A DNA stretch of 56,600 bases from Helicobacteraceae bacterium (lineage in GTDB: Bacteria; Campylobacterota; Campylobacteria; Campylobacterales; Sulfurimonadaceae): assembly GCA_013138865.1 (NCBI GenBank), contig WTBY01000075.1, positions 1-56,600 on the forward strand, in the 5' to 3' direction. How positions within the stretch are numbered: the stretch's first letter is position 1; each line of letters starts with the position of its first letter. The position numbers and the translations under genes were made by a program. Shown here in pieces: positions 29,075 to 31,963 of the stretch. Below the pieces are notes generated by a model. The model was not told the origin of the DNA, did no database searches, and was given only the letters and a program-made list of their open reading frames with translations.

Positions 29075-29335
29075 TTATAATCCTGGTACTATAGGTTGCT
29101 CTGAGTCTGCTGCATGTTCTATGAGGTATTGTTTTAACTTACCTCTAGTCTCAGGTGAAATATCATTAAGACTGTATCGAACAAGTCTTCTTTGAGTAGA
29201 GAATATACGCTCCCACTGTATAGTAGCTTTAGTTCCTGCATAAAGATTCAAATTTTTGGCTAAAACTTGTATATCATCTGCTTGGGAAAGAGTACAAATA
29301 AAAGTTAATATGATAAATTTTGATAAATTTTTAAT
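29075..29335 (-). CDS. small exported protein, probable AUU start
   Basis: This frame of 86 residues has no ATG, GTG or TTG near its start. It begins at an ATT codon directly preceded by an in-frame TAG. An excellent ribosome binding site (AGGGGGAAG) lies a few bases upstream. The reading KNLSKFIILTFICTLSQA is a textbook signal peptide with a cleavage site before DDIQV. The mature part (LAKNLNLYAGTKATIQWERI, ending EQPIVPGL) looks well conserved in character. The stop codon abuts the ATG of the DUF3373 gene. Either AUU is the natural start, as known for infC, or ATG has mutated. I do not know its function. Confidence 0.65.
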   Translation of the reverse strand: MKNLSKFIILTFICTLSQADDIQVLAKNLNLYAGTKATIQWERIFSTQRRLVRYSLNDISPETRGKLKQYLIEHAADSEQPIVPGL

Positions 29336-29413
29336 CTACTTCCCCCTACATTAGAATATTTTGAATATAATTATAGCAAAATAATTTAATAAGTTTTATA
29401 GGTGGTGCTTAAT

Positions 29414-30085
29414 ATGTCAGCAAAAATACTACTATTAGAAGATGATATGACACTAAACGAAACAATTGTTGATTTTTTAGAAGATAACAATTATGAAGTA
29501 ATTTCTGTTTATGATGGAGAAGAAGCATCCACACTTATATATGAACAAAATTTTGATCTTTTTGTATTTGATGTAAATGTACCTTTACTAAATGGGTTTG
29601 AACTTCTCAAACAAAAAAGAGAAGATGGTATTAAAACTCCTGCCATTTTTATAACATCTCTTAACTCCATAGAGTCTTTAGAATCTGGTTATGAAGCTGG
29701 ATGTGATGACTATATTAGAAAACCTTTTATACTTAAAGAGTTACTATTTAGAGTAGAAAACATACTCAAAAGGGGCTATTTTCATGAGAGTGATTCTAAA
29801 ATTAAGATAGATACAAATATAGAGTATGACACCTCATCAAATCTACTATTTATAAACACTAAAGAGGTTAGCCTTAATAACAAAGAGTCTAAGTTACTAA
29901 AGCTATTTTTACAACATCAAGATGAAGCCATAACACATGAACTAATATATGAAACACTTTGGCAATACGAAGAAGTACCAAGTGAAACTGCACTAAGAAC
30001 GTATATAAAGAACCTTAGAAAATTAATAGGAAAGGAAAAAATTGTCAGTATCAAGAAAGTTGGATATAGATTTACTAGCAAGTGA
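29414..30085 (+). CDS. OmpR-family response regulator
   Basis: This is a receiver domain (about residues 1-120; acidic cluster LLEDD, phosphoacceptor Asp in FVFDVNVPLLNG, Lys in IRKPF) followed by a winged-helix DNA-binding domain (about 130-223, ending VGYRFTSK). The frame extends up to GTG 29402, but the strong AGGTGG ribosome binding site at 29400-29405 points to ATG 29414 as the true start. It overlaps the sensor kinase gene by 44 bases. Divergent from the porin-like operon starting at 29335, which it could control. The pair is followed by a cytochrome gene, suggesting respiration-linked control. Confidence 0.92.
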   Translation: MSAKILLLEDDMTLNETIVDFLEDNNYEVISVYDGEEASTLIYEQNFDLFVFDVNVPLLNGFELLKQKREDGIKTPAIFITSLNSIESLESGYEAGCDDYIRKPFILKELLFRVENILKRGYFHESDSKIKIDTNIEYDTSSNLLFINTKEVSLNNKESKLLKLFLQHQDEAITHELIYETLWQYEEVPSETALRTYIKNLRKLIGKEKIVSIKKVGYRFTSK

Positions 30086-31232
30086 AAAGCAATCTTTACG
30101 TAGATTTTTATCACTATATATTTTACTAACTATTATAATAATATCGATCTTCTCTTTTGTATATTATGAGTTTCAAAAAGATCTTATGTTGCAAGAAAAA
30201 AGAGTAACTCTTCAAGAGTATTCTAGAGAACTTATTCATGATCTAAAAAAGCTTCACAGCAATTTTAATACAACCCAAACTTATCCAAGGTATGAAAACT
30301 TTACAAGTTCTATTTTTGACAATAATAAAAAACTTATTTTTAGAACATCTAACTCAACAAAAGTGCCAAATAAAATTTTATCCTTAAAAGATAATACTAT
30401 TCGTCTTGTTAGTGTCCCAGAGTCTTACTACTTAGGTGCTACATATATTTTAATTGAAGCCAAAGACGATCAAATATGGCTAGAAAAAACAAAAAAGACA
30501 ATTTTACTATTTTCTACTATCTCTTTTATTTTTATGTCTTTTATAGGGTATGTTTTAATGAGACTCTTTTTAAAGCCTATGAGAGATGCTTTACAACTAC
30601 TCGATCACTTTATTAAAGACACGACGCATGAACTAAATACGCCAGTAACTACGATCGTAGCCAATATTGAGATGATCGATCACTCATCACTAGATCCTAA
30701 ACTACTCAAAAAAATAAAACGTATAGATATAGGTGCTAAAACTATCTCTAATATATATCAAGATCTTACATACTTAACGCTAGGTAATAAAATTATTTCT
30801 CACGATCAAGAGTTAAATGTAGCTAGCATAGCCAAAGAGCGAGTTGAATATTTTAGATCAATAGCTGATGCGAAAAAAGTTACTTTAGAGGTAGACGTAC
30901 AACAAGAGAGTACTCTAAACATGGATCTAGCTAAGTTTTCAAAGCTACTAGACAACCTACTCTCTAATGCCATTAAATATAACGTAGTTAATGGAAATGT
31001 TAAAGTAACTATTTACAACAAAAGTATAATAGTTGAAGATAGTGGAATAGGAATACCAAAAGATAAACTCTCTAAAATATTAACAAGATACAGTCGTTTT
31101 AATAAAAGTACAGGTGGCTTTGGAATAGGTTTAAATATAGTCTCTTTAATATGTAAAGAGTATGATCTCTCAATTGAGGTTAGCTCAGAGTTAAAAATAG
31201 GTACAAAAGTGAGTATATCATGGTTAAAGTAA
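30042..31232 (+). CDS. membrane sensor histidine kinase
   Basis: The 396-residue kinase has two transmembrane helices (about 23-43 and 153-177) enclosing a periplasmic sensor domain of about 110 residues, then a dimerisation/phosphoacceptor region with the His in TTHELNTPVTTI (about 198), and an ATPase domain with LLDNLLSNAIKYN, VEDSGIGIP and GGFGIGLNIV. The TTG start at 30042 lies inside the response-regulator gene, and AGGAAAGG at 30027-30034 is a good ribosome binding site for it. TTG 30060 is an alternative. The following cytochrome gene starts 13 bases before its end. The ligand is unknown. Confidence 0.92.
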   Translation: MSVSRKLDIDLLASEKQSLRRFLSLYILLTIIIISIFSFVYYEFQKDLMLQEKRVTLQEYSRELIHDLKKLHSNFNTTQTYPRYENFTSSIFDNNKKLIFRTSNSTKVPNKILSLKDNTIRLVSVPESYYLGATYILIEAKDDQIWLEKTKKTILLFSTISFIFMSFIGYVLMRLFLKPMRDALQLLDHFIKDTTHELNTPVTTIVANIEMIDHSSLDPKLLKKIKRIDIGAKTISNIYQDLTYLTLGNKIISHDQELNVASIAKERVEYFRSIADAKKVTLEVDVQQESTLNMDLAKFSKLLDNLLSNAIKYNVVNGNVKVTIYNKSIIVEDSGIGIPKDKLSKILTRYSRFNKSTGGFGIGLNIVSLICKEYDLSIEVSSELKIGTKVSISWLK

Positions 31233-31546
31233 TTTTACTACTACTAAGTGTAACTATTTTATATGCTGACATATATGTGAAGAACTGTCTACCTTGCCAT
31301 CAAAAACAACCCGTAAGCATAGAAAACTATTTTTATAAGTACCTACTTCACTATAGCTCTGAAGAAGATGTAAAGAGTGCTATGGTTAGTTTCTTAAAAG
31401 ATCCAACAAAAGAGAGTAGCGTAATGCCAAGTAAGTTTATAGATCAGTTTGGTATAAAAAGTAAAACTACACTTAACGAGAAAGAGTTACAGCAAGCTGT
31501 AAACATCTACTGGAAAAAATATACTGTTTTTGGAAAATTAAAATAG
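31220..31546 (+). CDS. small periplasmic cytochrome c-like protein
   Basis: The product has 108 residues with a signal peptide (about 1-16) and one haem-binding CLPCH motif at about residues 24-28. A Met in SSVMPSKF (about 72) could be the second axial ligand. It overlaps the histidine kinase gene by 13 bases and probably belongs to the same transcript. It may serve as a redox input or as a target of the two-component system. It resembles mono-haem cytochromes but is too divergent for me to assign a subfamily. Confidence 0.75.
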   Translation: MVKVILLLLSVTILYADIYVKNCLPCHQKQPVSIENYFYKYLLHYSSEEDVKSAMVSFLKDPTKESSVMPSKFIDQFGIKSKTTLNEKELQQAVNIYWKKYTVFGKLK

Positions 31547-31604
31547 TTACAACTCTTCACATTAATATTACTTTTTAAGAAAGACTATCTATAACTTGTA
31601 TATT

Positions 31605-31661
31605 TATAATAGTTTATGTTAGAATTCACAATTATTTCACAATAAGCTGTTAAAATAACAG
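31605..31661 (+). promoter_or_regulatory. promoter and operator-like inverted repeat of the cytochrome gene
   Basis: TATAAT at 31605-31610 is a probable -10 element. Downstream, CTGTTA-AAA-TAACAG (31647-31661) is a perfect 6-bp inverted repeat in the leader, followed by a ribosome binding site AAAGGA (31672-31677). The repeat could be a regulator site or a weak leader hairpin. The whole gap 31547-31684 holds no gene. Confidence 0.35.
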
Positions 31662-31684
31662 TACAAAAACAAAAGGATCGAAAT

Positions 31685-31963
31685 ATGAAAAAAATTGCAT
31701 TAGCATTAACAGTATCAAGTGTTGCTCTATTAGCAGCAGTAAATGTAGGCGCTTGTAAAGGTTGTCACGGAGCTAACTTTGAAAAGAAAGCTATGGGTAA
31801 ATCTAAAGTTGTTGCAGACATGACTCATGCAGACATCGCAGCTTCACTTAAAGGTTACAAAGCAGGAACTTACGGAGGACCAATGAAAGGTCTTATGAAA
31901 GGTCAAGTTGCTAAGTATTCTGACGCTGACCTAGATGCATTCGCTCAAACTATTGGTAAATAG
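31685..31963 (+). CDS. periplasmic class I cytochrome c (c553-like)
   Basis: This 92-residue exported mono-haem cytochrome has a signal peptide (about 1-20), then CKGCH at about residues 24-28, and the axial Met probably in GGPMKGLMKG (about 61-70). It should carry electrons between respiratory complexes in the periplasm. It has its own promoter and a strong downstream terminator, so it is a single-gene unit. Codon choice is cleaner than in its neighbours (GCA, AAA, GGT), as often seen for abundant proteins. Confidence 0.92.
   Translation: MKKIALALTVSSVALLAAVNVGACKGCHGANFEKKAMGKSKVVADMTHADIAASLKGYKAGTYGGPMKGLMKGQVAKYSDADLDAFAQTIGK

Follow-up and report, generated by a model that had tools for sequence, protein, structure and literature searches.

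A small gene with a predicted signal peptide and a probable AUU start codon heads a conserved DUF3373 and GGDEF/EAL operon in Campylobacterota

Introduction

Where does translation begin in a gene whose frame is intact and yet offers no ATG, GTG or TTG codon before its signal peptide? This question is raised by a short gene in the contig WTBY01000075.1 (assembly GCA_013138865.1) of a Helicobacteraceae bacterium placed in the Sulfurimonadaceae; the whole stretch of 56,600 nucleotides analyzed here is referred to as the window. AUU is a rare and inefficient start codon. The infC and pcnB genes of Escherichia coli start at AUU, and in infC this codon serves the autoregulation of IF3. The original prediction, which gave no strand, read the locus as an exported-protein gene starting at AUU and hinted at a regulatory use as in infC. 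Here, we describe the anatomy of the gene and its operon, its homologs, the start codons used across its family and the probable origin of the encoded protein.

Results

Anatomy of the small gene and its start site

The small gene lies on the minus strand, running from 29335 to 29075. The frame of 86 codons reads IKNLSKFIILTFICTLSQADDIQ...HAADSEQPIVPGL and ends at a TAA stop (29077–29075), and the ATG of the following porin gene (29074) begins at the very next base. The putative start codon ATT occupies positions 29335–29333, as judged from the frame, the Shine-Dalgarno (SD) spacing and the relatives. It is adjoined on its 5′ side by an in-frame TAG (29338–29336), which shuts out any upstream in-frame start, and is preceded at a distance of 6 nt by the SD-like sequence AGGGGG (29347–29342), which compared with AGGAGG contains one G-U pair. 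The first 19 codons (29335–29279) encode IKNLSKFIILTFICTLSQA, in which two lysines, a hydrophobic core and the terminal SQA were recognized by eye as a signal peptide; hydrophobic leaders occur at the matching position in relatives. All these elements were found as originally predicted, including the stop codon ahead of ATT, the SD sequence close upstream and the abutting of the terminal stop on the next gene.

The only ATG, GTG or TTG codon in the frame is the TTG at 29251, so that ATT stands as the sole plausible start of an exported-protein gene, in agreement with the prediction. The expectation that gene callers would shorten the gene was likewise borne out, as an ORF list restricted to ATG, GTG and TTG gives a product of 58 aa from this TTG, without the signal peptide. 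Initiation at TTG 29251 would yield a cytoplasmic protein and has the merit of using the sole canonical codon available, but no SD lies ahead of it, and it would cost the protein its signal peptide along with the conserved beginning of the mature domain, which is retained in most relatives whose start can be read; we regard this reading as extremely improbable.

Further upstream, an ATG-TAG start-stop pair (29351–29346) overlaps the SD sequence. An ATG followed by a stop within 30 nt upstream of the start was found in 4 of 86 members of the small-gene family, and in L009 an ATG-TAA pair lies at the place matching that of the window, ahead of a TTG start. TATAAT preceded by TGC, an extended −10-like element, is located 34 nt before ATT (29375–29370), and TANAAT occurs at comparable distances in many relatives. 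Since a sigma-70 scan found no consensus promoter on the minus strand, we treat this element as a putative promoter. Folding of the leader RNA revealed nothing unusual (z 0.62 and 0.08), by which an RNA structure over the start codon was ruled out.

Homology of the small gene

To gauge how often such an arrangement arises by chance, 381 kb of the same genome (the window and 20 other stretches) were scanned for an SD sequence and a signal-peptide-like sequence without a canonical start. A single ATT site was returned, that at 29335, while five random replicates together gave one ATT; other codons also gave matches, about as in random sequence. Because of these chance matches, the anatomy alone is not significant, and the combination of SD sequence and signal peptide was dropped as a proof of the gene.

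It is homology that establishes the small gene as real. Matches were detected at E ≤ 0.01 in 67 of the 228 genomes of its own family, with a best identity of 71%, and of 64% over nearly the full length. The frame was free of stops in 64 of the 67 matches, one of which was ended by a contig edge, and the three matches with internal stops (G211, G111 and G215) were weak. Several tblastn alignments of relatives extend to residue 1, and that of the profile begins at residue 2. An alignment of 24 rows shows no variation at K36, Q40, W41, F45, L67 and D77, and the C-terminal end HAADSEQPIVPGL is conserved. By profile search, the gene was detected in 33 of 398 genomes at the level of the order and in 20 of 397 at that of the phylum, the latter set overlapping the former. 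No further complete member was found in the family of G233, no relatives in viral contigs (0 of 34 stretches) and plasmids, and no other copy in the rest of the window's genome.

A separate frame of the same genome is also of note for its start. This phage-type frame (L140, contig C70, 7446–6556, minus strand) has homologs in Campylobacter and Helicobacter phages, which align mostly from residue 34 onward. The first ATG, GTG or TTG after its preceding stop is a TTG some 20 codons into the frame, and the ACG of ACG AAG AAA TTA, following AAAAGGAG, is a possible start.

The small gene heads an operon with DUF3373 and GGDEF/EAL genes

The small gene is a genuine gene that opens an operon on the minus strand. 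The second gene (29074–27545) encodes a DUF3373 outer-membrane beta-barrel protein of 509 aa (PF11853, 146 bits against a cut-off of 26.1), a family given as 1.B.62 in the excerpted text of PMC4827864. The third (27535–25553) encodes a GGDEF/EAL protein of 660 aa (EAL 2.7e-54, GGDEF 2e-15), in which inspection by eye showed two likely membrane spans enclosing a segment. The apparent SD sequence of the porin, AGGA (29084–29081), falls within Pro-Gly codons at the end of the small gene, CCAGGATTATAA, and the arrangement ccagga...taa|ATG recurs in relatives. As this sequence sits in the last codons of the small gene, translation of the porin may be coupled to it.

The operon is conserved. Of the 69 loci L001–L069 (duplicates included), 64 have a DUF3373 gene after the small gene, the exceptions being L004, L023, L026, L035 and L053; in the first four of these, a GGDEF/EAL gene or a fragment of one directly follows instead. 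Twenty loci of the order were classed as carrying the porin by a long downstream frame alone. When 20 members were sampled with longer flanks, 15 had the three genes in the same tight order as the window, four (L171, L172, L173 and L175) had the porin with no GGDEF/EAL gene seen within about 3 kb, and one had a GGDEF/EAL fragment only. In view of those four members, the link between the three genes is not universal. DUF3373 itself is broader than the small gene, being present in 181 of the 228 family genomes.

Two observations were made on the genomic surroundings. A second, stronger DUF3373 gene is located elsewhere in the window's genome (G000:C19:69006-70196). On the plus strand of the window, 29402–31963 contains divergently oriented genes for a response regulator and a sensor kinase, after which come two small proteins with CxxCH (108 and 92 aa); this kinase and regulator pair, when looked for among the loci of relatives, was found only in L046, in another arrangement.

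Start codons across the family

Start codons were assigned in 86 members by judgement on the SD sequence and on the position relative to the conserved lysine, which gave ATG in 67, TTG in 11, GTG in six and ATT in two. The count omits L031 (a duplicate of L013) and L032 and L069 (truncated, on one shared contig), and L064–L068 were entered by hand coordinates; in L019, L030, L035 and L117, ATG or another canonical start is also in frame, and L002 has a CTG with an SD sequence beside its ATG. In L008, L010, L011 and L038, an ATT or ATA with better SD spacing lies directly before the assigned TTG, and these are possible further AUU or AUA starts.

The window's ATT precedes the invariant K36 by 35 residues, within the span of 30–47 residues covered by the assigned starts, and the window's gene is the only one of the 86 members in which a canonical start at least 28 residues before the conserved lysine is missing. 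The second ATT, in L022 (1486–1488), is preceded by AGGAG at 7 nt and lies 34 residues before the conserved lysine. The sole canonical option in L022 is a TTG six codons later, which has a 3-base SD match and would lose the charged n-region. The two ATT rows fall apart on a poorly resolved tree, and since only two of the 86 members have ATT, ATT is not a conserved device. The nearest relatives, about 60–73% identical in the core, start at ATG. The SD sequences of most ATG members are comparable to that of the window or weaker, so the SD sequence by itself says little.

In the genes at the porin position after the small gene, ATG is the start in 75 of 79. This count omits L031, L032, L069, L004, L053, L063 and L100 (no long frame) as well as L023, L026 and L035, in which GGDEF/EAL comes next, and L047, with an apparent frameshift, was entered as ATG. 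Non-ATG starts thus occur in 19 of 86 small genes versus 4 of 79 porin-position genes (Fisher p 0.0015, kinship ignored); the small gene accordingly has an unusually loose start codon, with AUU as its extreme.

The absence of ATG, GTG and TTG before the signal peptide, together with the TAG directly 5′ of ATT, leads us to favor AUU 29335 as the place where translation probably begins. The rarity of ATT in the family, the high variability of its start codons and the fact that the persistence of ATT rests on one genome in the genus could also be taken to mean that the start codon was recently lost, with the gene silent or nearly silent in this strain, the porin relying on an SD sequence of its own for translation. 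We consider this unlikely, as the frame, signal peptide and invariant residues are intact, the strong SD sequence is kept, and ATT recurs at the matching place in L022. A base error hiding an ATG or another canonical start in an assembly of 82 contigs has only a slim chance of being the explanation: ATT is indeed one base from ATG, the codon of most relatives, but the sequence gives no reason to suspect an error, and the matching codon of L022, in a separate genome, would have to carry an error of the same kind. An indel in the G5 run is of no help to this reading, because the TAG sits between the run and ATT and no upstream frame can be opened. The only errors that could matter are an altered base at or close to ATT and an indel 3′ of the TAG.

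The hint at a regulatory role as in infC found no support. Besides the scarcity of ATT in the small-gene family, infC in the order of the window begins with TTG at each of the 26 loci, out of 30, whose start was readable, the window's genome included, and there is thus no sign of an AUU circuit of the infC type. In the infC loci of Campylobacterota (L070–L099), the TTG is often part of GGTAAATTTTTG and closely follows an upstream TGA.

The small protein is likely related to cytochrome c

No Pfam or NCBIfam model matches the small protein. A homolog in L033, from a deltaproteobacterial MAG that the tree tool assigns to Myxococcota, precedes a DUF3373 gene and carries CxxCH; it matches Cytochrom_C above the cut-off and DHC at E 0.006, and hhalign of L033 against the small-protein family gave Prob 98. 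CxxCH is present in one of 89 rows, that of L033, and is missing from the window protein and every Campylobacterota row. These results suggest that the small protein is likely a cytochrome-c-like protein without haem, differing from DHC and class I cytochrome c (PF09626, PF13442 and PF00034) by the lack of their haem motif CxxCH, and that the CxxCH protein of L033 and its DUF3373 neighbor are a possible porin-cytochrome pair.

A relationship to DHC in particular is only a lead. The model of the window protein, of middling quality (pLDDT 68), matched 2fwt (DHC) in the VIA list with Z 3.3 over 65 residues (rmsd 4.1), a score that unrelated folds also reach. In hhalign, local DHC proteins gave Prob 66 over 21 columns, aligning YL..(N/H)A.DS. 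The PF09626 profile matched neither the window protein nor anything else in its genome, Foldseek with the model returned no usable match (E 5.6 or worse), and the family profile found nothing below E 0.18 among solved structures.

Discussion

We propose that the strong AGGGGG selects AUU 29335 for initiation, that the initiator tRNA presumably places formyl-Met at this codon, and that the signal peptide would then export the small protein. As AUU is a weak start, the small protein would be made at a low rate. Porin translation would be partly coupled to that of the small gene through the SD sequence in its last codons, and the scarcity of the small protein together with this coupling might determine in what proportions the three products are made. 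The most likely role for the small protein in the periplasm would be to connect the outer-membrane barrel with the c-di-GMP enzyme of the inner membrane, and it may have evolved from a cytochrome-c-like protein whose haem site was lost.

Such a layout resembles YfiBNR which, as excerpted, likewise comprises an outer-membrane protein, a small periplasmic protein and an inner-membrane GGDEF protein, whereas the outer-membrane part here is DUF3373 and the enzyme also has an EAL domain. The small protein has no YfiR-type Pfam match, and the other two proteins, compared by Pfam only, likewise gave no sign of homology; YfiBNR is therefore an analogy only.

Among known AUU starts, those of E. coli infC and pcnB are alike in the use of AUU as a weak start, but infC in the order of the window starts at TTG, and the small gene encodes no translation factor. 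For Staphylococcus aureus, the excerpted text of one study (PMC13009471) describes cvfC1, which encodes 61 aa at the head of an operon; its AUU start and extended SD sequence are conserved among staphylococci and were demonstrated by initiation profiling and reporters, and non-canonical starts there reached about 10% of an AUG reporter in poor medium. Going by that excerpt, cvfC1 is a closer parallel to the small gene than infC, since it too encodes a small protein, opens its operon and pairs AUU with a strong SD sequence, although AUU is conserved and experimentally shown in cvfC1, whereas here ATT is found in just two of the 86 family members and is read from sequence; we claim no kinship of the two proteins. 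ATA and ATT starts backed by proteomics are also described for Nostoc in the excerpted part of PMC8557916. In open-access full texts, we found no AUU starts in Campylobacterota, and open-access texts yielded nothing on an operon of the small gene with DUF3373. AUU starts are thus already known from infC, pcnB and cvfC1, while the operon reported here is undescribed.

More broadly, the three genes might form an undescribed envelope signaling module of Campylobacterota, composed of a haem-less cytochrome-c-like periplasmic protein, a DUF3373 barrel and a GGDEF/EAL enzyme, in which weak starts (TTG, GTG and twice AUU) would hold the periplasmic protein at low levels compared with its partners and so set the sensitivity of c-di-GMP signaling; we put this forward as a doubtful, speculative proposal. 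Documented bacterial AUU starts are few, and the small gene, if it does start at AUU, would offer a testable case outside infC and pcnB. It would also mean that gene calling limited to ATG, GTG and TTG deprives an exported protein of its signal peptide. The small-protein family, which matches no Pfam or NCBIfam model, marks a conserved porin and c-di-GMP operon that is worth naming.
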